NCBI GenBank assembly: GCA_902793325.1
Contig: CADBCY010000020.1
Span: 1-50,075 of the forward strand
DNA from: an uncultured Eubacteriales bacterium
GTDB taxonomy: Bacteria > Bacillota > Clostridia > Christensenellales > Aristaeellaceae
DNA: 50,075 nucleotides
Direction of reading: 5' to 3'
Below the pieces are notes generated by a model. It made no database searches. It saw nothing but the letters and a program-made list of their open reading frames with translations, and was not told the origin of the DNA. How positions within the stretch are numbered: the stretch's first letter is position 1; each line of letters begins with the position of its first letter. Of this stretch, positions 38,692 through 49,086 are shown one piece after another. Made by a program: the position numbers and the translations under genes.

Positions 38692-38723
38692 CCATGGCAT
38701 CAATCCCGTGCCGGAGGCAAGCC

Positions 38724-39899
38724 GTGTCCATCAAAGCTCTGCTCAAGAAAAACAAGGCGGTGTTCCGCGCCGCGCAGGCCGCGCGGACCCTGCCCTATCC
38801 CCTGCTGCGCGGCCTGTGCGGCCTGTTCCGCCGCGCCTGCGGCATCGACCGCCGCACGGTGTACTTCTCCAGCTTCGGCGGCATGCTGTGCAACGACAAC
38901 CCCCGCGCGGTGGCCGAGGCGCTGCACCGGCTCCGGCCCGACCTGCGGCTCGTATTCTGCCTGAGCGGCGCGGGCAAGCGGGACAGGACCCTGCCGGACT
39001 GGATCGAGGCCGTGCCGCGGCGCTCCCTGCGGGCGCTGAAGGCGCTGTCCACCGCCCGCGTGCTGGTGCTGAACGCCGCCATGCAGCCCTGGATGCGCCG
39101 CTTCCCCGGCCAGCGCTATGTACAGACCTGGCACGGCGACCGGGGCTTCAAGCGCATCCGACTGGACGTTCACCCGGGCCGGGCGTCCTACCTCCGCGAG
39201 GGCGCGTGGATCGACCTGGCCGTGTCCGGCTCCGCCTTCGGGAGCCGCGTGTTCCACTCCGCCATGGCGGTGCAGGGCGAGATCCTGGAAGAAGGCTGCC
39301 CGCGCAACGACCTGCTGGTCGCCCGGCCCCCGGAGGTCGCCGCGCGGATGCGGGCGGCGCTGGGCATTCCCGACGGCGCGCGGGTGCTGCTCTACGCCCC
39401 CACCTTCCGCAACAGTTCCTCCGGCGGCGCGCAGGACGCGACGTTCCGCCTGGACGCCGCCCGGGAAGCGCTGGAGCGGAGCACCGGCGAGCGCTGGGTG
39501 TGCCTGACCCGCAGCCACGAGCTGGCGCGGGGCATCCGCGCGGGCGGGGCGAAGGACGTCAGCGGCGTGGCCGACGTCAGCGCGCTCCTGCTGGCGGTGG
39601 ACCTGCTCATCACCGACTATTCCTCCATCGGCGGGGACTTCATGCTGCTGGATCGCCCGGTGATCTACTTCCAGCCCGACCGCGGCAGCTACGACACCGA
39701 ACGCGGCCTGTACTTCGACCCGGACGAATCGCCGCTGCGGGTCGCCCACTCCGAGGAGGAGCTGCTGGCGCTGCTGTCCGGGCCCATCGACGCCGCTGCC
39801 AACTGCCGCGCGTGCCTGGCGTACTTCGGCGCGCGGGAGACCGGCCATGCGTCTGAGGCCGTGGCCCGCTGGATTGCGGAGCGCATCGACGGGGACTGA
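38724..39899 (+). CDS. CDP-glycerol glycerophosphotransferase family protein (TagB/TagF-like)
   Basis: 391 residues. The family signatures VQTWHGDRGFKRI, VLLYAPTFRN and LLITDYSSIGGDFMLLDRPVIYF are clear. Such enzymes transfer glycerol phosphate or a related alditol phosphate from a CDP donor to a lipid-linked or polysaccharide acceptor, peripherally at the cytoplasmic membrane. The start is GTG at 38724 with GGAGG 6 nt upstream; the ATG at 38694 lies upstream of the expected transcription start and has no ribosome-binding site. The acceptor polymer is unknown. Confidence 0.88.
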   Translation: MSIKALLKKNKAVFRAAQAARTLPYPLLRGLCGLFRRACGIDRRTVYFSSFGGMLCNDNPRAVAEALHRLRPDLRLVFCLSGAGKRDRTLPDWIEAVPRRSLRALKALSTARVLVLNAAMQPWMRRFPGQRYVQTWHGDRGFKRIRLDVHPGRASYLREGAWIDLAVSGSAFGSRVFHSAMAVQGEILEEGCPRNDLLVARPPEVAARMRAALGIPDGARVLLYAPTFRNSSSGGAQDATFRLDAAREALERSTGERWVCLTRSHELARGIRAGGAKDVSGVADVSALLLAVDLLITDYSSIGGDFMLLDRPVIYFQPDRGSYDTERGLYFDPDESPLRVAHSEEELLALLSGPIDAAANCRACLAYFGARETGHASEAVARWIAERIDGD

Positions 39900-39952: not shown

Positions 39953-39981
39953 TTGACAAAACCCGGCCGCGGCCCTATAAT
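39953..39981 (+). promoter_or_regulatory. Promoter of the aromatic amino acid operon
   Basis: TTGACA (39953-39958), a 17-bp spacer and TATAAT (39976-39981), a perfect consensus. Transcription would start near 39988 and produce a leader of about 230 nt before aroF. Bases 39900-39952 show only a short G+C-rich hairpin without a T-run. Confidence 0.85.
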
Positions 39982-40050
39982 ACTTGCAACGGTACGTTAG
40001 CAGGGTGAATCGCCCCGCGGCGCCCGGCAACACAATCGGAGGAAATCCCC

Positions 40051-40110
40051 GTGAAAAAGCATTGCGCGTACAGCTATTATTACTTTACCTTTATCGGCTT
40101 TGGCAGATAG
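40051..40110 (+). CDS. Tyr/Phe-rich leader peptide of an attenuator
   Basis: A 19-codon frame starting with GTG, with GGAGGA 7 nt upstream, encodes MKKHCAYSYYYFTFIGFGR: four Tyr (three in a row) and three Phe. It lies between a consensus promoter and a Rho-independent terminator, directly before the gene for the first enzyme of Tyr/Phe synthesis. This is the layout of ribosome-mediated attenuators such as E. coli pheA, whose leader is Phe-rich. Stalling at the Tyr codons (40069-40083) would leave 40113-40125 free, whereas a ribosome at the stop codon (40108-40110) would cover it. The frame is too short for ordinary gene finders. Confidence 0.85.
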   Translation: MKKHCAYSYYYFTFIGFGR

Positions 40111-40112
40111 AG

Positions 40113-40173
40113 GAGCTTTGCTGTACCGCGGATTTTCGTTCACGGATCGAAAAACGGCCCTGCAGTGAAACTC
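40113..40173 (+). promoter_or_regulatory. Candidate antiterminator pairing
   Basis: GAGCTTTGCTGTA (40113-40125) can pair with TGCAGTGAAACTC (40161-40173), with one mismatch and three G-U pairs. The second segment includes the inner 5' arm and loop of the terminator, so the two structures exclude each other. A shorter alternative, TTTTCG (40133-40138) with CGAAAA (40149-40154), also competes with the terminator. Proposed by eye, not computed. Confidence 0.45.
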
Positions 40174-40190
40174 GCTGCGGGGCCGTTTTT
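40150..40190 (+). terminator. Attenuator terminator before aroF
   Basis: AAAAACGGCCCTGCAG (40150-40165) pairs over 16 bp with CTGCGGGGCCGTTTTT (40175-40190), one G-U pair, 9-nt loop, ending in five T. It is 29 bp upstream of the aroF start and would stop transcription unless the leader structure is rearranged. Confidence 0.9.
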
Positions 40191-40219
40191 CATGGGACAA
40201 ACGGAAAGGAGCGCGCGCC

Positions 40220-41227
40220 ATGATTATACTGCTGAAGGACAAGGTGGACGAGAAACAGGTCAAAAACCTGACCAACTGGCTGGAGGGCATCGGCTTTCAA
40301 CTGCACATCTCCAAGGGCGAGCACAAGACCATCATCGGCCTGATCGGCGACACCAGCCGCGTGGACATGGATCTGATCGCCTCGCTGGACATCGTGGAGA
40401 CCGTGAAGCGCATCCAGGAGCCCTTCAAGAGCGCCAACCGCAAGTTCCACGAGGACGACACCGTCATCGACATCGGCGGCAGGGCGAAGATCGGCGGCGG
40501 CAACTTCCTGATGATCGCCGGCCCCTGCTCCGTGGAGAACCGGGACCAGATCATCTCCGTGGCGCGGGACGTGAAGGCCAGCGGGGCGGGCATGCTGCGC
40601 GGCGGCGCGTTCAAGCCCCGCACCTCCCCCTACGCCTTCCAGGGGCTGCACGAAAAGGGGCTGGAGCTGCTGAGCGAGGCCAAGCGCGCCACGGGGCTGC
40701 CGATCATCACCGAGATCATGGAGGCCGGCCACCTGCCGCTGTTCGAGGACGTGGACGTCATACAGGTCGGCGCGCGGAACATGCAGAACTTCGAGCTGCT
40801 GAAGGAGCTGGGGCACTGCGGCAAGCCCATCCTGCTGAAGCGCGGCCTGGCCAACACGCTGGAGGAGCTGCTGATGAGCGCCGAATACATCATGGCGGGC
40901 GGCAACGAGAACGTGATCCTGTGCGAGCGCGGCATCCGCACCTTCGAGACCTACACCCGCAACACGCTGGATCTCTCCGCCGTGCCCGTGCTTCGCCGGC
41001 TCACGCACCTGCCCGTGGTGGTGGACCCCAGCCACGCCACCGGTCACAGCTACCTGGTGAAGAGCATGGCCCTGGCGGCCACCGTGGCCGGCGCGGACGG
41101 CCTGATCATCGAGGTGCACAACGACCCGCCCCACGCGCTGTGCGACGGCAAGCAGTCGCTGACCCCCGCGCAGTTCCAGGATGTGGCGGACTGCGTTCGC
41201 AACGTATTGCCCTTCAGAGTGCGGTAA
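40220..41227 (+). CDS. aroF: 3-deoxy-7-phosphoheptulonate synthase (DAHP synthase, type I-beta)
   Basis: 335 residues. A ~70-residue ferredoxin-like N-terminal domain precedes the barrel, as in the Thermotoga enzyme where it gives Tyr/Phe feedback inhibition. Catalytic segments include [34 protein letters not shown] and [15 protein letters not shown]. It condenses PEP and erythrose 4-phosphate, the committed step. ATG with AAGGAG 8 nt upstream, directly after the attenuator; first gene of the operon. Confidence 0.97.
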
Positions 41228-41240
41228 AGGAGGAATTCCC

Positions 41241-42083
41241 ATGACCATCGGCATCATCGGGCTGGGACTGATCGGCGGATCGCTGGCGCTGAGCATCCGC
41301 AGGCACACCGGGCACACCGTGCTGGGCCGGGACATCGACCCCGCCACCATGCTCCGCGCCAAGGCGGTGAACGCCATACACGACGAGCTGACCGACGAGC
41401 GCCTCCCCGAGTGCGACCTCGTGCTGGTGGCGCTGTACCCCCAGCTCTGCGTGGACGTGATCGCGAGCCTCGCCGACCGGTTCGGCGACCACGCGGTGGT
41501 GGTGGACTGCGCCGGCGTGAAGCGCCACGTCTGCCGCCAGCTGGAGCCCCTCGCCGCGCGCTGCAAATGGCAGTACGTGGGCGGGCACCCCATGGCGGGG
41601 CGCGAGTTCTCCGGCTTCTCCTACGCCCGCGCGGACCTGTTTGAAAACGCCAGCATGATCCTCTGCCCCCCGGCGGAGGTGGAGATCGAAACGCGCGAGC
41701 TGCTCAAGCGCTTCTTCCTGGAGATGGGCTTCAAGATGGTGCGCTTCAGCACCCCCGAGGCCCACGACCAGATGATCGCCTACACCAGCCAGCTCGCCCA
41801 CGTGGTGTCCGGCGCCTACGTGAAAAACCCCCTCGCCGCCGAGCACAAGGGCTTTTCCGCCGGCAGCTTCCTGGACATGACCCGCGTCGCGCGGCTGAAC
41901 GAGAAGATGTGGACGGAGCTGTTCCTGGAGAACGACGACCTGCTCCTGCCCGCGCTGGACGACCTGATCCTGCGGCTGAACGCCTACCGCGACGCGCTCG
42001 CGGGCCGCGACCCCGCGGCGCTGGAGCCGGTGTTGAAGGAGGGCCGCCTGTGCAAGGAGGCCCTGGACGAGCCCGCGCCGTAA
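41241..42083 (+). CDS. tyrA: Prephenate dehydrogenase
   Basis: 280 residues. The NAD-binding loop IGIIGLGLIGGSLA and the active-site segment VGGHPMAGREFSGF are typical of TyrA; the helical dimerisation domain follows. There is no ACT or chorismate mutase domain, so it relies on PheA for the mutase step. It oxidises and decarboxylates prephenate to 4-hydroxyphenylpyruvate. ATG with AAGGAGG upstream, 13 bp after aroF. Confidence 0.94.
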   Translation: MTIGIIGLGLIGGSLALSIRRHTGHTVLGRDIDPATMLRAKAVNAIHDELTDERLPECDLVLVALYPQLCVDVIASLADRFGDHAVVVDCAGVKRHVCRQLEPLAARCKWQYVGGHPMAGREFSGFSYARADLFENASMILCPPAEVEIETRELLKRFFLEMGFKMVRFSTPEAHDQMIAYTSQLAHVVSGAYVKNPLAAEHKGFSAGSFLDMTRVARLNEKMWTELFLENDDLLLPALDDLILRLNAYRDALAGRDPAALEPVLKEGRLCKEALDEPAP

Positions 42084-42102: not shown

Positions 42103-42609
42103 ATGCAGATCACCGTCAGGCACGCGCTGCGCGAGGAGCTTCCCCGCGTGAACGAGCTGCGCCGACAGGTCAACGAGCTGCACGTCGAGGGCCGCCCGGA
42201 CATCTTCCGGCCCGGCTTCTGCGAGGAGCTGCGGCAGCATGTGGTCGAGCTGTTCGACCATCCCGAGTCCTCCGCCGTGATCGTGGCGCTCGTCGACGGC
42301 GTGGTGGCGGGCTTTGCCTCGGTCCAGTACGTGCACCGGCCGCAGAGCCCCTACAACAATCCCCAGGACCTCTACCACGTCCAGGAATTCGGCGTGGACG
42401 CCGCCTTCCGCCGCCGGGGCGTCGCGACGGCGCTCGTCGACTTCATGCGCGCCGACGCCCGCGAGCGCGGCTTCGCCCGCATCGACCTGGATGCCTGGGC
42501 GTTCAACGAGGGCGCGCTGGCGTTCTACCGGCGCGCGGGCTTCCGGCCGTACCGGTGGTACTTTGAGATGAATACGGAGGAGGAATCGCCATGCGCACCG
42601 TCCATGTAA
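42103..42609 (+). CDS. GNAT-family N-acetyltransferase
   Basis: 168 residues. The acetyl-CoA loop is VDAAFRRRGVATALVDFM and the end of the fold DAWAFNEGALAFYRRAGF is typical of GNAT. ATG with AAAGGAGG upstream, 19 bp after tyrA; its 3' end overlaps aroB by 19 nt, so it is integrated into the aromatic operon rather than a chance neighbour. No GNAT step belongs to the shikimate pathway; substrate unknown. Confidence 0.88.
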   Translation: MQITVRHALREELPRVNELRRQVNELHVEGRPDIFRPGFCEELRQHVVELFDHPESSAVIVALVDGVVAGFASVQYVHRPQSPYNNPQDLYHVQEFGVDAAFRRRGVATALVDFMRADARERGFARIDLDAWAFNEGALAFYRRAGFRPYRWYFEMNTEEESPCAPSM

Positions 42610-43655
42610 ACGCTTCCACACCCTACGACGTGCTCATCGGCGAGGGCCTGATCGACCGCGCGGGCGAGCTGACCGCGAAGGTCGTGAAGCCCTGCCGGGC
42701 GGTGATCGTCGCCGACGACACCGTGGACGAGCTCTACGGCGACCGGGTGCAGATCAGCTTCAGCTACGCCGGTTTCGACGTCTCCCGCTGGACCTTCCCC
42801 GCCGGGGAGGCCAGCAAGAACCTGGGCACGCTGTCGGAGCTGCTGGAGGAGCTCGCCGGGCGGCGCGTGACCCGCAGCGACCTGGTGGTTGCGCTGGGCG
42901 GCGGCGTGACCGGCGACATGGCGGGCTTTGCCGCGGCGGTGCTGAACCGCGGCGTGCGCTTCGTGCAGATCCCCACCACGCTGCTGGCCGCGGTGGATTC
43001 CTCCGTGGGCGGCAAGACCGCGGTGGACCTGCGGGCGGGCAAGAACCTGGCCGGGGCGTTCCACCAGCCGAGCCTGGTGGTGACCGATACCGACGTGCTC
43101 CGCGAGCTGCCCGCGGCGCTGCGCTCCTGCGGCGCGGCGGAGGCGATCAAGTGCGGTGTGCTCCGCGATCCGGCGCTGTTCGACCTGCTGGAGGGCGGCG
43201 ACTGGCTGGGCGACATCGACGAGATCGTGGTGCGCTGCGTGGCCTACAAGCGCGACGTGGTGGCCCGCGACGAGTTCGACACCGGCGACCGCGCCTTCCT
43301 GAACCTGGGCCACACCTTCGGCCACGCCATCGAGCAGTTGAGCGGGCTGACCGTCAGCCACGGCGAGGCGGTGGCCGTGGGCATGCTGATGGCCGCGACG
43401 AGCGCCGGTTGCCCGGACGACACGGTGCTGCGCCTCGCGCGGTGCCTGCGGGCCAACGGGCTGCCGACCCACTGTCCCTACGGCGCGCAGGCGCTGGCGG
43501 GCGCGGCGCTGTCCGACAAGAAGCGCTCGGGCGACACCCTCACGCTGGTGCTGCCGGAGGCGATCGGCAGGTGCATACTCAGGAAGATTCCCGTCGGCGC
43601 GCTCGAAGACTGGTTCGCCCGCGCGCTCGCGGCGCAGGAGCGGCTGGCGCTATGA
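42591..43655 (+). CDS. aroB: 3-dehydroquinate synthase
   Basis: 354 residues. ALGGGVTGDMAGFAAAVLNRG (residues ~101-121) binds NAD; PTTLLAAVDSSVGGKTAVDL, AEAIKCGVL and NLGHTFGHAIE carry metal- and substrate-binding residues. It converts DAHP to 3-dehydroquinate. ATG lies inside the end of the GNAT gene, and the stop overlaps the aroA ATG (ATGA). Confidence 0.97.
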   Translation: MRTVHVNASTPYDVLIGEGLIDRAGELTAKVVKPCRAVIVADDTVDELYGDRVQISFSYAGFDVSRWTFPAGEASKNLGTLSELLEELAGRRVTRSDLVVALGGGVTGDMAGFAAAVLNRGVRFVQIPTTLLAAVDSSVGGKTAVDLRAGKNLAGAFHQPSLVVTDTDVLRELPAALRSCGAAEAIKCGVLRDPALFDLLEGGDWLGDIDEIVVRCVAYKRDVVARDEFDTGDRAFLNLGHTFGHAIEQLSGLTVSHGEAVAVGMLMAATSAGCPDDTVLRLARCLRANGLPTHCPYGAQALAGAALSDKKRSGDTLTLVLPEAIGRCILRKIPVGALEDWFARALAAQERLAL

Positions 43656-44857
43656 ACGCGACGATCTATCCGGGAAAGCTCCGCGGCGCGGTGCAGGCGC
43701 CGCCCTCCAAGTCCGCCGCGCACCGGGCGCTCGTCGCCGCCGCGCTGGCGGACGGGCCGACCTCGCTGCGGCTGGGCAGGCTCAACCAGGACATCGAAGC
43801 CACCATGCGCTGCCTCTCGGCGCTCGGCGCGTCGTTTGACGGGGACGGCGAACGATGGCAGGTCATGCCCGCGTCGCGCGTCCCGGCGCGCGCCGAGCTG
43901 GACTGCGGCGAGAGCGGCTCCACGCTGCGCTTCCTGCTGCCCGTCGCCTGCGCGCTGGGCGCGAGGGCGCGCTTCACGGGCCGCGGCAGGCTGCCGGAGC
44001 GCCCCAACCGCGCGCTCACGGAGGCGCTTCGCGCCCACGGCGCGACCATCGACTCCGACCTGCTGCCCATGGCCGCGGAAGGACCGCTGACCGCCGGTCG
44101 GTTCGCGCTGCCCGGCGACGTGTCCAGCCAGTACGTCACCGGCCTGCTGTTCGCGCTGCCGCTGCTGGACGGGGACAGCGCGATCGCCCTGACCACGCGG
44201 CTGGAATCCGCCGCCTATGTGGACATGACGCTCCGGGCGCTGGCGGCGTTCGGCGTGATCGCCGAGGCCACGGAATCCGGCTGGCGCGTGCTGGGCGGGC
44301 AGCGCTACCGTACCCCGGGCCGGCTCGACGTGGAGGGCGACTGGTCGGCGGCGGCCTTCTGGCTGGCGGCGAACCGCATCGGCTCGGACGTTCGCGTCGA
44401 GGGCCTCTCGGAGGATACCGCCCAGGGCGACCGCGCCGTCCTGTCGCTGCTGGGCCGGCCCAGGATCGACGCCTCGAACGTGCCGGACCTCGTCCCCGCG
44501 CTGGCCGCGGCGGCGGCGACGCTGCCCCAGGTGACGACCGTCACCGGCGCGGCGCGGCTGAGGCTCAAGGAGAGCGACCGGCTCTCGGCCACGGCGGGCT
44601 TCATCAACGCCCTCGGCGGCCGCGCGGAGGCCACCGCGGACGGCCTGATCGTCGAAGGCGGCCGTCCAATCCGCGGCGGCCGGGTGGACGGCGCGGGCGA
44701 CCACCGCATCGTCATGGCCGCCGCCGTGCTCGCCACCGCCGCCGACGGCCCGGTGACCATCGCCGGCGCGGAGGCCGTGGCAAAATCCTACCCCGACTTT
44801 TTCCGGGACTTTATCCGACTGGGAGGGCGCGCAGATGTCGAACAGCCTTGGCAATAG
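43652..44857 (+). CDS. aroA: 5-enolpyruvylshikimate-3-phosphate synthase
   Basis: 401 residues, somewhat short. PPSKSAAHRALVAAALA contains the phosphate-binding Lys/Ser; DCGESGSTLRFLLPV is the PEP/glyphosate loop; SSQYVTGLLFALPL, GDWSAAAFWLAA and RLKESDRLSA follow. Compared with E. coli LGNAGTAMRP the loop keeps the Gly but has Phe where Pro101 lies. ATG overlaps the aroB stop, and the 3' end overlaps aroC by 23 nt. The frame upstream to 43151 is a shadow of aroB. Confidence 0.94.
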   Translation: MNATIYPGKLRGAVQAPPSKSAAHRALVAAALADGPTSLRLGRLNQDIEATMRCLSALGASFDGDGERWQVMPASRVPARAELDCGESGSTLRFLLPVACALGARARFTGRGRLPERPNRALTEALRAHGATIDSDLLPMAAEGPLTAGRFALPGDVSSQYVTGLLFALPLLDGDSAIALTTRLESAAYVDMTLRALAAFGVIAEATESGWRVLGGQRYRTPGRLDVEGDWSAAAFWLAANRIGSDVRVEGLSEDTAQGDRAVLSLLGRPRIDASNVPDLVPALAAAAATLPQVTTVTGAARLRLKESDRLSATAGFINALGGRAEATADGLIVEGGRPIRGGRVDGAGDHRIVMAAAVLATAADGPVTIAGAEAVAKSYPDFFRDFIRLGGRADVEQPWQ

Positions 44858-45923
44858 CTACCGCGTGCAGATCTTCGGGCAGAGTCATTCCCCGCAGATC
44901 GGCTGCGTGATCGAGGGCGTCCCCGCGGGGATCGTCCCGGACATGGAATCCATACGATCCTTCATGGCCCGCCGCGCCCCGGGCGGCGCGCTGTCCACGG
45001 CGCGCCGGGAAGCGGACGAACCCCGCATCGTCGCCGGCCTCAACGACCGCGGCGAGACCTGCGGCGCGCCGCTGACAGCGCTCATCGAGAACGCCGACCC
45101 GCGCAGCCGCGACTACGACAGGCTGCGGGACATCCCCCGCCCCGGCCACGCGGACTACACCGCCCGGGTGAAGTTCGGCGGGCACAACGACATCCGCGGC
45201 GGGGGCCAGTTCTCCGGGCGGCTCACCGCGCCGCTGTGCTTTGCCGGCGCGCTGGCGATGCAGTTGCTCCGGGACAGTGGCGTGCGGATCCGCGCGCGGG
45301 TCCTGCGCGTCGCGGGCATCGAGGACGACGCCGTCGACTTCCTCCGTCCCCCCATGGACGGCCTGTGCGACGGCCCGCTGCCCTGCGTGAACGCCGACGC
45401 CGCCGCGCGGATGGCCGGGGCCATCGAGGCGGCGCGCGCGTCGGGCGATTCCGTGGGCGGCGTCGTGGAGTGCTTCGCCACCGGCCTGCCCGCCGGGCTG
45501 GGCGACCCGATGTTCGACGGCGTGGAGAACCGCCTTGCCCGGGCGCTGTTCGGCATCCCCGCCGTGCGGGGCGTGGAGTTCGGCGCGGGCTTCGCCGCGG
45601 CGGACATGACCGGCTCCGCCCACAACGACGCCCTTCGCGCGGCGGCGGACGGGGTCGCATTCGAATCCAACCGCCACGGCGGCGCGCTCGGGGGCATCAC
45701 CAGCGGCGCGCCGATCGTCGTTCGCGTCGCCTTCAAGCCCACGCCCTCCATCGCCCGGCCCCAGCGCTCCGTGTCGCTGTCCCGGGGCGAGGATGCGGAG
45801 CTGGTGATCGAAGGCCGTCACGACCCCTGCGTGGTGCCCCGCGCCGTGCCCGCGGTGGAGGCCGCCGCGGCCTGCGCGCTGCTGGACATGATGCTGGACG
45901 CGGGCCTTTCCTTCCCGACCTGA
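44835..45923 (+). CDS. aroC: Chorismate synthase
   Basis: 362 residues. FMN-dependent AroC fold: IFGQSHSPQIGCVIEGVPAG (the common GESHG reads GQSHS but keeps His), DIRGGGQFSGRLTAPLCFAG, FGAGFAAADMTGSAHND and GGALGGITSGAPI. It makes chorismate from EPSP. The ATG lies within the end of aroA; the gene ends 15 bp before pheA. Confidence 0.95.
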   Translation: MSNSLGNSYRVQIFGQSHSPQIGCVIEGVPAGIVPDMESIRSFMARRAPGGALSTARREADEPRIVAGLNDRGETCGAPLTALIENADPRSRDYDRLRDIPRPGHADYTARVKFGGHNDIRGGGQFSGRLTAPLCFAGALAMQLLRDSGVRIRARVLRVAGIEDDAVDFLRPPMDGLCDGPLPCVNADAAARMAGAIEAARASGDSVGGVVECFATGLPAGLGDPMFDGVENRLARALFGIPAVRGVEFGAGFAAADMTGSAHNDALRAAADGVAFESNRHGGALGGITSGAPIVVRVAFKPTPSIARPQRSVSLSRGEDAELVIEGRHDPCVVPRAVPAVEAAAACALLDMMLDAGLSFPT

Positions 45924-45938
45924 AACGGAGGTATCGCC

Positions 45939-47084
45939 ATGGAGCTCAACGAGATCCGCCGGGAAATCGACAACATCGACGACCAGCTCGTGAAGCTGTT
46001 CGTGGCGCGCATGGAGGCCGTGGGCCGGGTGGCCGCCTCCAAGCGCGAGACGGGCAAGCCCATCCTCGACCACGCCCGGGAGCGCGCCGTGCTGAACCGC
46101 GTGGCCGCGCAGGCGGGCGACGATTGCGCGCCCTACGCGCGGGCGCTGTACAAGCAGATCTTCGACCTGTCCCGCGCCTACCAGAGCAGCCTCTTCCACT
46201 ACGAGACGCCGCTGGCCGACCGCATCGCGGACGCCCTCGCGAACACTCGCGGGAAGCGGCTGCCGGACCGCGCGCTGGTGGCCTGCCAGGGCACCGAGGG
46301 CGCCTACGCCCAGCAGGCGTGCGAGAAGCTGTTCGCCTGCCCGGACATCCTCTACTTCGACAGCTTCGAGGGCGTGTTCCGCGCCGTGGAGCAGGGCATG
46401 TGCCGCTACGGCATACTGCCCATCGAGAACAGCACCGCCGGTTCCGTCACGCAGGTGTACGACCTGATGGAGCGGCACGACTTCCACATCGTCGGCGCGC
46501 AGAAGCTGCGCATCGACCACCGGCTGATGCGCCGGAACGGGCGCTCGAAGACGCCGATCACCGAGATCGTGTCCCACGAGCAGGCGCTGCGCCAGTGCAG
46601 CGATTACCTGGCCGCGCACCCGCAGATCAGGGCCACGCCGATGGAGAACACCGCCAAGGCGGCGGAATACGTGGCCCGGTGCGAGCGGGACGACATCGCC
46701 GTGATCGCCTCCCGCGCCTGCGGCGGCCTGTACGGGCTGGACGTGATCGACGACGCCGTGGCCAACAGCGAGAGCAACTACACGCGGTTCATCTGCATCT
46801 CCCGGGCGCTTGAGATCTACCCCACGGCGCGGAAGATCAGCCTGATGCTGAACCTGGCGCACGAGCCGGGCTCGCTGAACCAGGTGCTGAACAAGCTGGC
46901 CATCGCGGGGCTGAACGTGACCAAGCTGGAGAGCCGACCGATGCCGGGGCGGGAGTTCGAATTCCGCTTCTTCTTCGACATCGCCGCCAGCGTCGCCGAC
47001 CCCGACGTGCCGCGCCTGCTGTGCGAGCTGGAGGCCCGCAGCGAGCGGTTCGTGTTCCTGGGCTGGTACGACGAGGCGAACTGA
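45939..47084 (+). CDS. pheA: Bifunctional chorismate mutase / prephenate dehydratase
   Basis: 381 residues, three domains. An AroQ-type chorismate mutase (1-85, LNEIRREIDNIDDQLVKLF) precedes prephenate dehydratase (from ~112, VACQGTEGAYAQQACEKLF, GILPIENSTAGSV, NYTRF) and a C-terminal ACT domain with the Phe-binding ESRP motif. It converts chorismate to phenylpyruvate with probable Phe feedback. It also supplies prephenate for TyrA. ATG after ACGGAGG. Confidence 0.97.
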   Translation: MELNEIRREIDNIDDQLVKLFVARMEAVGRVAASKRETGKPILDHARERAVLNRVAAQAGDDCAPYARALYKQIFDLSRAYQSSLFHYETPLADRIADALANTRGKRLPDRALVACQGTEGAYAQQACEKLFACPDILYFDSFEGVFRAVEQGMCRYGILPIENSTAGSVTQVYDLMERHDFHIVGAQKLRIDHRLMRRNGRSKTPITEIVSHEQALRQCSDYLAAHPQIRATPMENTAKAAEYVARCERDDIAVIASRACGGLYGLDVIDDAVANSESNYTRFICISRALEIYPTARKISLMLNLAHEPGSLNQVLNKLAIAGLNVTKLESRPMPGREFEFRFFFDIAASVADPDVPRLLCELEARSERFVFLGWYDEAN

Positions 47085-47094
47085 GGTGAGGCGC

Positions 47095-48336
47095 ATGGAA
47101 TACGGCCTGATCGGCGCAAAGCTGGGGCACAGCTACTCCCCCGCGCTGCACGCGCGGCTGGGCGACTACGACTACCGGCTCTACGAGCGCACCGAGGCGG
47201 AGTTCGTCGAGCTGATGGCCCGCCGCGACTTCAAGGGGCTGAACGTCACCATTCCCTACAAGAAGGTGGCCTTCGCGCACTGCGACGTCCTCTCGGACAC
47301 CGCCCGCGCCGTGGGCTGCGTGAACACGCTCGTCGTGCGGCCGGACGGCGCGCTGTACGGCCACAACACCGACATCGGCGGCTTCCTCGCGCTGGCGCGG
47401 CGCGCGGGCATCGACCTCGCGGGCCGGAAGGTGGTGGTGCTGGGGAGCGGCGGCGCGAGCCTCACCGTCCAGGCCGCGGCGCGGCAGTCGGGCGCGTCGG
47501 CGGTGGTCGTCGTCTCCCGCGGCGGCCCCGTGGACTACGAGGCCCTCTACCGCGACCATGCGGACGCCGGGATCCTGGTAAACGCCACCCCCGTGGGCAT
47601 GTACCCGGACAACGGCCGCGCCCCCGCCGACCTCGGCCGCCTGCCCGCCCTGAGGGGCGTGCTGGACGTGGTGTACAACCCCGACAAAACCGCGCTCGTG
47701 CTGGACGCGGAGGCGCGGGGCATCCCCGCCGCGGGCGGGCTTTACATGCTGGTGGGCCAGGCCAGGGAGGCGGCGGAGCTGTTCACGGGCCATCCCATCG
47801 ACGAGGCCGTCGCGGAGGATCTGTACGCCCGGCTGCGCGGCGAGGTGCTGAACCTGGTCCTCGTCGGCATGCCCGGCTGCGGCAAGACCACGCTGGGCAG
47901 GCGGCTGGCGGAGCGCATGCGCCGCCCGTTCGTAGACTGCGACGCGGAGATCGAGCGCCGGGCGGGACGCGGCATTCCCGAGATCTTCGCCGCCGACGGC
48001 GAGGCGGCCTTCCGGGCGCTCGAAGCGCAGGTGCTCGCCGACGTCGGCCGGGAGAAGGGGCAGGTGATCGCCACCGGCGGCGGCGCCGTACTGCGGCCGG
48101 AGAACGTGCGCGCGCTTCGGCAGAACGGCGTCGTGGCGCTGCTGGAGCGCCGCCTGGACGCCCTGCCCACGGAAGGCCGTCCCCTCTCCAAATCCCCCGA
48201 GGCGCTGGCGGCCATGTGGGCGGTCCGCGCCCCGAAGTACCGCGCCGCGGCGGACTTCACCATCGACAACAACGGTTCGCCCGAGGAAGCCCTCGCGCGA
48301 ACGGAGGAGGCGTTCCATGAAGCTGCTGGTCGTTAA
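47095..48336 (+). CDS. aroE-aroK: Shikimate dehydrogenase - shikimate kinase fusion
   Basis: 413 residues. Residues 1-~245 are shikimate dehydrogenase: GHSYSPALHA, catalytic K56 in NVTIPYKK, NTD at 91-93, nucleotide loop VLGSGGASLT. Residues ~250-413 are shikimate kinase: Walker A GMPGCGKTTLGRR (258-270), DCDAEIERRAGRGI, FRALE, ATGGGAVLR and lid GRPLS. One chain therefore does two non-consecutive positions flanking shikimate, reducing dehydroshikimate and phosphorylating shikimate. The ATG at 47095 has GAGG 8 nt upstream; the GTG at 47086 is less well placed. It overlaps aroQ by 20 nt. Confidence 0.95.
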   Translation: MEYGLIGAKLGHSYSPALHARLGDYDYRLYERTEAEFVELMARRDFKGLNVTIPYKKVAFAHCDVLSDTARAVGCVNTLVVRPDGALYGHNTDIGGFLALARRAGIDLAGRKVVVLGSGGASLTVQAAARQSGASAVVVVSRGGPVDYEALYRDHADAGILVNATPVGMYPDNGRAPADLGRLPALRGVLDVVYNPDKTALVLDAEARGIPAAGGLYMLVGQAREAAELFTGHPIDEAVAEDLYARLRGEVLNLVLVGMPGCGKTTLGRRLAERMRRPFVDCDAEIERRAGRGIPEIFAADGEAAFRALEAQVLADVGREKGQVIATGGGAVLRPENVRALRQNGVVALLERRLDALPTEGRPLSKSPEALAAMWAVRAPKYRAAADFTIDNNGSPEEALARTEEAFHEAAGR

Positions 48337-48751
48337 CGGCCCCAACCTGAACATGCTGGGCATCCGGGAAAAGCACATCTACGGCGACCGCGACTACGAC
48401 GCGCTGTGCCGCTACATCCGCGAGGAGGCGGCGAAGCTGGGCTGCGAGGTGGAGCTGTTCCAGTCCAACCACGAGGGGGCCATCGTGGACCGCATCCAGC
48501 AGGCCTACTTCGACGGCACCGAGGGCATCGTCATCAACCCCGCGGCTTACACCCACACCAGCGTGGCAATCCTGGACGCGCTGAAGGCGGTGCAGTTGCC
48601 CGCCGTGGAGGTCCACCTCTCCGATGTGAACGCGCGGGAGGAATTCCGCCGGCTCTCCTACGCCGGCATGGCCTGCCGGGCGCACTTCATCGGCCTAGGC
48701 TTTGAAGGGTACGGGCGGGCGATGGCGTGGCTGGTCCAGGCGAAAGGCTGA
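48317..48751 (+). CDS. aroQ: 3-dehydroquinate dehydratase, type II
   Basis: 144 residues. LLVVNGPNLNMLGIREKHIYG with the catalytic Tyr, FQSNHEGAIVDRIQ, INPAAYTHTSVAI and EVHLSDVNAREEFRR identify the dodecameric type II enzyme. It makes 3-dehydroshikimate. The ATG is inside the end of the aroE-aroK gene; last gene of the operon. Confidence 0.97.
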   Translation: MKLLVVNGPNLNMLGIREKHIYGDRDYDALCRYIREEAAKLGCEVELFQSNHEGAIVDRIQQAYFDGTEGIVINPAAYTHTSVAILDALKAVQLPAVEVHLSDVNAREEFRRLSYAGMACRAHFIGLGFEGYGRAMAWLVQAKG

Positions 48752-49055: not shown

Positions 49056-49086
49056 GGCCTGCGCCCGAAATGATCGGGCGCAGGCC
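49056..49086 (-). terminator. Terminator-like hairpin after valS
   Basis: GGCCTGCGCCCG pairs perfectly over 12 bp with CGGGCGCAGGCC, 7-nt loop, 15 bp after the valS stop. Only three T follow on the minus strand, so efficiency is uncertain. It may also end transcripts coming from the aro operon. Confidence 0.55.

Follow-up and report, generated by a model that had tools for sequence, protein, structure and literature searches.

Gene content and layout of the aroF locus

The stretch of DNA analyzed here (50,075 nucleotides [nt], referred to as the window) carries on its plus strand nine genes of the same direction which, according to their profile matches, cover the seven steps to chorismate and the Tyr and Phe branches minus the last transamination. 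The first gene is aroF (40220 to 41227; NF006421, TIGR01361, PF00793, and PF18152), encoding a DAHP synthase with a ferredoxin-like N-terminal domain. It is followed by tyrA, the prephenate dehydrogenase gene (41241 to 42083; PF02153 and PF20463), the start of which was chosen by us within the longest frame, beginning at 41181. Further downstream lie aroB, encoding 3-dehydroquinate synthase (42591 to 43655; TIGR01357), aroA, encoding 3-phosphoshikimate 1-carboxyvinyltransferase (43652 to 44857; TIGR01356), aroC, encoding chorismate synthase (44835 to 45923; NF003793 and TIGR00033), and a gene for a chorismate mutase-prephenate dehydratase of the pheA type (45939 to 47084; PF01817 and PF00800). 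The series ends with an aroE-aroK fusion for shikimate dehydrogenase and shikimate kinase (47086 to 48336; PF08501 and PF01202) and aroQ, encoding a type II 3-dehydroquinate dehydratase (48317 to 48751; NF003805 and TIGR01088). The remaining gene, between tyrA and aroB, encodes a GNAT acetyltransferase (42103 to 42609; PF00583), to which profiles of named subfamilies match only weakly. The next terminator-like site on the same strand is found at 49056 to 49086.

The upstream neighbor of the leader is a glycerophosphotransferase-type gene (38694 to 39899; PF04464). Behind it, at 39953 to 39981 on the plus strand, we identified a sigma-70-type promoter (TTGACA-17-TATAAT) that matches the consensus at 12 of 12 bases and thus deserves the word perfect, used for it in an earlier note on this DNA. 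RNA polymerase would start from it at about position 39988, and a TTGACA/TATAAT-like pair was also seen by eye upstream of the frame in most of the printed loci of the genus. Both sequence and translation bore out the short frame claimed in the same note: a ribosome-binding site, GGAGGA (40038 to 40043, plus strand), stands 7 nt upstream of a GTG codon that opens a leader frame of 19 sense codons, ending with TAG (40051 to 40110, plus strand). The frame translates as VKKHCAYSYYYFTFIGFGR followed by the stop, and 4 Tyr and 3 Phe codons make it rich in codons for the products of the pathway; by their profiles, the downstream genes belong to the synthesis of both of these amino acids.

It had also been suggested that the reach of this leader would extend, through chorismate, to every product derived from it, which is too wide a claim here: neither the trpE-type domain PF04715 (TrpE/PabB N-domain, anthranilate synthase) nor the trpC-type domain PF00218 (IGPS) had a match in the organism's own genome, which is 95% complete. 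At that completeness, the absence could possibly reflect an assembly gap; if it is real, the operon serves only Tyr and Phe, matching its sensor. Within the genus, PF04715 was found in 8 and PF00218 in 12 of 25 genomes, a pattern in which Trp auxotrophy may come and go. Relatives that do bear trpE (for instance, loci L002 of genome G021 and L008 of genome G008) keep the same Tyr/Phe leader, and the sensor therefore does not follow the Trp pathway.

Competing pairings in the leader RNA

An intrinsic terminator (strands 3 and 4; 40149 to 40191, plus strand) separates the frame from the first gene and folds into a stem of 20 bp with a 3-nt loop and U5. A terminator with T5 had been recognized in the earlier note with a stem of 16 bp; the terminator stands, while its stem has to be lengthened because the A5 and U5 ends pair too. 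It was missing from the output of a simple terminator scan, probably as a result of the U run being consumed by the stem. Strand 3 (40161 to 40173, plus strand), located within the terminator (5′ arm and loop), pairs either with strand 4 or, forming the antiterminator, with strand 2 (40113 to 40126, plus strand). The previously claimed antiterminator, 40113 to 40125 with 40161 to 40173, indeed pairs at 12 of 13 positions. In addition, strand 2 pairs through 40120 to 40126 at 7 of 7 positions with a protector, strand 1 (40068 to 40074, plus strand), which overlaps the Tyr7-Ser8 codons. This strand within the frame was not named in the earlier note and completes the usual attenuator design. The leader as a whole folds much better than its shuffles (z of −4.83).

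We analyzed the effect of a ribosome on these pairings by folding the RNA as it would exist prior to the synthesis of strand 4, with the bases under the ribosome forced to be single stranded; this is a thermodynamic model, and the mask is an assumption of it. Without a ribosome, the probability of the 1:2 pairing was 0.94 to 0.98 and that of the 2:3 pairing was 0.00. When the A site was placed at Tyr7, Tyr9, Tyr11, Phe12, Phe14, or Phe17 (the six codons run), the probability of 2:3 reached 0.78 to 0.98, and a ribosome positioned on the stop codon gave 0.21 to 0.41. The comparison of competing folds, which the note had proposed as a check, hence gave a 2:3 pairing that is frequent at Tyr and Phe codons, rarer at the stop, and absent from the ribosome-free RNA. 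In the model, this is the behavior of a classic attenuator, and it reproduces the idea that stalling at Tyr or Phe codons frees 40113 to 40125 to pair with 40161 to 40173.

The pairings were then examined in 59 of 80 nonredundant aroF loci. To be included, a locus had to have 5 or more Tyr/Phe, a hairpin no weaker than −10 kcal/mol, and a distance from stop to hairpin of 5 to 75 nt. Compared with shuffles by RNAduplex, the 2:3 pairing reached a P value of ≤0.05 in 20 and the 1:2 pairing in 21 of the 59 loci, about 3 being expected for each, with median P values of 0.085 and 0.125, respectively. Taken alone, the window's own 2:3 pairing is no better than shuffles (P = 0.66), while its 1:2 pairing beats them (P = 0.000). 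A better test of co-evolution than shuffling is the swapping of strands between species. In the same 59 loci, own strands were favored over swapped ones by 2.87 kcal/mol for 2:3 and by 12.32 kcal/mol for 3:4 (for each, 0 of 10000 permutations were as low), and the own terminator arms ranked in the best 10% for 57 of the 59. The controls lay near zero, with 0.28 kcal/mol for 1:3 (1547/10000) and 0.34 kcal/mol for strand 2 with reversed strand 3 (1177/10000). The gain for 1:2 was 4.29 kcal/mol; since strand 1 with reversed strand 2 also gained 1.82 kcal/mol (0/10000) and 1:4 gained 0.66 kcal/mol (65/10000), the 1:2 gain is partly due to base composition. The antiterminator that excludes the terminator is thus seen in the pairing itself, in the masked folding, and in the swap test, and a protector pairing is present in or beside the frame.

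The note had also asked for covariation in both structures. Within the genus (21 sequences), 98.8% of 252 cells were paired in 2:3 and 94.6% of 147 cells in 1:2, and none of the pairs of either helix had changed on both sides, because the strands hardly vary. For the antiterminator, the expectation was therefore not borne out. As for the terminator, 88.0% of 384 cells held over the 19 pairs of 3:4, and 4 pairs had changed on both sides, a number equaled in 31 of 500 shuffles. With near-invariant strands that prove nothing, genus covariation was dropped as support. Three motifs were seen by eye to recur across families: GCAGC upstream of the aromatic run, GCUGC downstream of it, and GCAGU within the hairpin. 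This recurrence would explain the alanine pairs (as in FAAEY) that precede the run in many leaders, if these residues correspond to strand 1.

Distribution of the Tyr/Phe frame and alternative readings

To follow the frame beyond the window, we collected the 400 bases upstream of aroF at 134 loci and kept the 80 that had more than 300 bases and whose AroF proteins differ by more than 20%. Under a rule fixed before counting (a ribosome-binding site, 10 to 45 codons, and 6 or more Tyr/Phe in a stretch of 12 residues), the frame was present at 53 of the 80 nonredundant loci, compared with 0.26% of dinucleotide shuffles. Phe plus Tyr ranked first of the 190 residue pairs with these 53 loci, followed by Ala plus Phe with 35 and Ala plus Tyr with 30, and on the opposite strand 0 of 80 loci reached even 5 Tyr/Phe. 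For the counts by group, the demand on the ribosome-binding site was relaxed slightly. The organism's own genus had the frame at 21 of 21 aroF loci (shuffles, 0%) and its order at 50 of 80 (0.25%). The corresponding numbers were 41 of 67 for the class draw, which includes locus L171 of the own order (shuffles, 1.0%), 11 of 49 for the phylum draw, which includes L196 and L197 of the own class (1.4%), and 52 of 78 for the nearest loci of named records (1.0%). These loci are the best among the matches listed plus a hand-picked one per genus and not random draws; loci with fewer than 250 upstream bases were dropped, namely, 1 of the 81 from the order, 2 of the 69 from the class, and 2 of the 80 nearest ones. 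The search for a conserved Tyr/Phe frame upstream of aroF in relatives, another check proposed at the outset, was thus positive, and the cognate codons are conserved in these groups. A lenient search (at least 4 Tyr/Phe) returned a frame in 122 of the 134 loci; it includes false calls and was excluded from the conservation counts.

At 30 of the 80 order loci, no frame was found by the rule. An upstream gene running into aroF was considered as the cause, but among the loci lacking the frame this applied to no more than 4 of 25 in the order and 3 of 23 in the class. The second DAHP synthase copies of four genomes of the order (L260 to L263) had the Tyr/Phe leader in 0 of 4 cases, and the two copies in these genomes are probably under different control. 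A covariance model built from the 21 genus leaders found one match each in 20 of 25 genus genomes (E value of ≤0.001), although 18 of these were already in the model's own alignment, leaving G020 and G024 as new. Of the genomes that the model did not match, G001, G014, and G022 had no aroF match, and G011 and G012 had an aroF fragment lacking its 5′ end. In 16 genomes from other families of the order, a single weak match was obtained (G048; E value of 7 × 10−4), so that the model is genus specific; beyond the genus, conservation is judged by the frame rule.

The carriers include the named isolates Angelakisella massiliensis (L079), Aminicella lysinilytica (L106), Emergencia sp. 1XD21-10 (L109), Sporobacter termitidis (L116), Anaerotignum neopropionicum (L121), Yanshouia hominis (L129), and Ruminococcus sp. 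zg-924 (L150), and the leader is therefore not an artifact of metagenome bins. The closest named AroF among the matches listed, with 89% identity, belongs to the uncultured Clostridiales bacterium RUG311. Aromatic-rich, Clostridia-like frames were also noticed at aroF in records labeled Treponemataceae, Thermoguttaceae, Planctomycetia, and Lentisphaerae (L089, L095, L127, and L153, respectively). They passed the lenient rule only, had no clear ribosome-binding site, and were excluded as evidence; they represent either mis-binned contigs or gene transfer, which are indistinguishable here. In some leaders of more distant Clostridia (L264, L273, L276, L277, L290, L294, and L297), the aromatic run includes Trp codons, many of them in a Ser-Trp pair, for which others, such as L295, have Ser-Gln. 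The Trp-bearing leaders are perhaps triple aromatic sensors, or the codons may merely be part of an RNA strand.

Three computed findings, namely, a conserved frame, a set of three pairings that compete with each other, and the response of these pairings to the ribosome mask, together indicate that the element is very probably a transcription attenuator of the ribosome-mediated type whose leader peptide mixes Tyr and Phe. Among other readings, a TnaC-like arrest peptide fares best and is still improbable. Here, the nascent aromatic chain together with a free aromatic metabolite would stall the ribosome, the metabolite being the signal. Such a role would fit the near-constant Phe-Ile-Gly and last codons of the genus leaders (TTT, ATC, and GGC in 21 of 21 and AGA in 19 of 21). 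However, this constancy is at the nucleotide level, as suits the RNA hairpin that both the fold and the structure of the covariance model place there, and Tyr and Phe interchange at position −5 (Tyr in 10 and Phe in 7). Moreover, outside the genus the peptide keeps just the aromatic run, along with some residues overlapping strand 1 or 2, while its remainder changes.

Even less probable is a riboswitch or T-box as the acting element, the short frame being incidental. T-boxes are numerous in the organism's own genome (19 matches with an E value of ≤0.001, five of them above the cutoff), several of them, by eye, before aminoacyl-tRNA synthetase genes (Val, Cys, Met, Ile, Ala, Ser, and Pro) and asparagine synthetase, and one locus of the class draw (L299, positions 55 to 322) has a T-box upstream of aroF, the same gene under another kind of tRNA-charging sensor. 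Nevertheless, no T-box motif was found at any of the 21 genus loci, the 80 order loci, or the 78 nearest loci of named records, and Rfam 15 returned nothing at cutoff for the window except two tRNAs, without a match to the T-box family RF00230. Under relaxed settings, the best subthreshold match was to Thr_leader, an attenuator that also works through a leader peptide (31 bits versus a cutoff of 55; E value of 4.5 × 10−4), followed by the trpB motif (23.7 of 59 bits) and Leu_leader (12.3 of 50 bits), a resemblance to known attenuator designs. A riboswitch would also leave the Tyr and Phe codons unexplained. Rfam applied to 20 related loci, 13 of which have the leader by eye, found only two T-boxes, in L188 and L299. 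Before trpE, the genus relative L327 has a T-box motif below the Rfam cutoff, and the more distant L325 has one above it.

It is scarcely credible that the product of the frame is a small protein with a function of its own and that the hairpin acts as an ordinary, partial terminator: the frame is conserved in the genus, but beyond it only the aromatic run and the residues overlapping strands 1 and 2 are kept, and a product-based role does not predict a skewed choice among synonymous Phe codons.

Phe codon choice, proposed mechanism, and known systems

The skew was seen when the leaders of 129 loci (in the window, for example, 40084 to 40101) were compared with the aroF genes; since the sequences are related, the P values of this comparison overstate its significance. 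In the genus, Phe is encoded by UUU at 56 of 57 positions in leaders and at 20 of 210 in aroF genes (odds ratio of 532), and 12 genes of the window use UUU for 14 of 131 Phe codons. The preference extends to hosts with a GC content above 55% (142/180 in leaders versus 94/344 in aroF; odds ratio of 9.9), of 45 to 55% (166/201 versus 201/394; 4.6), and of up to 45% (138/155 versus 189/277; 3.8). Tyr codons, unlike those of Phe, are not pushed toward their U-ending form, with UAU in leaders versus aroF at 21/91 versus 4/83 in the genus and, in the order of falling GC content, at 62/148 versus 73/165, 90/179 versus 83/178, and 48/109 versus 89/134. The UAC at Tyr7 may be set by its place in strand 1. 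Other NNU codons were modestly raised in GC-rich groups (12/83 versus 73/1575 and 58/145 versus 692/2643) and not in AT-rich hosts, making general A/T pressure an insufficient cause of the UUU preference. RNA structure was rejected as its cause as far as the predicted switch is concerned, as changing three UUU codons to UUC left the predicted probabilities unchanged within 0.01.

Phe is usually read by one tRNA. According to a model paper, attenuation needs particular synonymous codons, acting via isoacceptors, and an experiment with rare codons in the leu leader is cited there (PMC1183508); with a single tRNA for Phe, this argument is not transferable as it stands. Our guess is that UUU is preferred for its slower wobble reading. 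If such tuning is true, the attenuator would read the speed of UUU decoding, i.e., the charging and perhaps the modification of tRNA-Phe, and not only the amount of Phe.

From the promoter, the frame, and the terminator, we infer that the promoter is used, that the frame is translated, that transcription terminates, and that the system responds to Tyr and Phe supply, along the following lines. The ribosome would trail RNA polymerase along the leader frame. With ample charged tRNA-Tyr and tRNA-Phe, it would reach the stop codon at 40108 to 40110 and mask part of strand 2, strand 3 would then pair with strand 4, and transcription would end at about 40190. With either of the two charged tRNAs in short supply, the ribosome would stall at one of the seven control codons and mask strand 1, allowing the 2:3 pairing to form, the terminator to be blocked, and the nine-gene operon to be transcribed. 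In the case of no translation, the 1:2 pairing would form and termination would follow by default.

The pheL, trp, and his leaders of Escherichia coli combine a leader peptide rich in codons of the product, three competing pairings, and an intrinsic terminator before the first gene, all of which are shared by the present element. A T-box binds tRNA directly; those at aroF and trp genes of relatives (L299 aroF and L325 trpE) do the same job of reading tRNA charging with no leader peptide. Compared with the E. coli pheA, trp, and his attenuators, all three named as controlled by attenuation in PMC1183508, the element found here controls the first enzyme, all steps to chorismate, and both branches, mixes Tyr and Phe codons in one frame, resides in a Clostridia-type host, and scores below the Rfam cutoffs for leaders.

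The view expressed in the earlier note that attenuation of this kind is mainly proteobacterial and that Bacillota usually use T-boxes or TRAP has to be corrected, as leaders from Bacillota are in print (PMC2965389, PMC9413887, and PMC8632094). The first two papers describe His leader peptides in Bacillota; as far as their descriptions go, these share the classic attenuation that replaces T-boxes, whereas their codons are for histidine and their genes are his or hisS. The third reports uORFC-13-1, a predicted upstream open reading frame (uORF) with promoter, ribosome-binding site, and terminator directly upstream of aroF, for which attenuation was proposed; its published description gives 24 sequences, from Acholeplasma and unassigned environmental DNA only, and names at least one Phe codon. 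The position at aroF and the affiliation to Bacillota sensu lato are shared with our element, which differs from that description in its runs of Tyr and Phe and its presence in many families of Clostridia. A survey covering five genomes, that of Clostridium novyi among them, lists two candidate uORFs coding for Phe and Tyr before shikimate genes (PMC6429828). Their description there gives no distribution or competing pairings, the genome and genes being placed in the supplements, and these uORFs may be the same element as the one described here. Frames with aromatic codons at aroF or shikimate genes are thus, by these published descriptions, already predicted in print, while our searches of the open-licence PMC literature yielded no description of a Tyr/Phe attenuator at aroF in Clostridia. 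The kind of element is therefore known, and within the scope of those searches, this member and its breadth are undescribed.

The counts provide a large natural data set on codon choice in such sensors, in which the UUU preference is the part that specialists may not expect, and we offer an annotation rule for the locus, namely, a Tyr/Phe frame plus a terminator upstream of aroF. By sequence, the Tyr/Phe leader attenuator looks common in Clostridia. It is a tentative and rather doubtful extension that an ancient mixed Tyr/Phe attenuator is the standard for the shikimate operon in much of this class, tuned to Phe codons that are nearly all wobble-read UUU. Clostridia are usually described through their T-boxes; here, a classical leader-peptide attenuator, best known in proteobacteria, is counted before the first shikimate gene in many of them, and both systems coexist in the organism's own genome.
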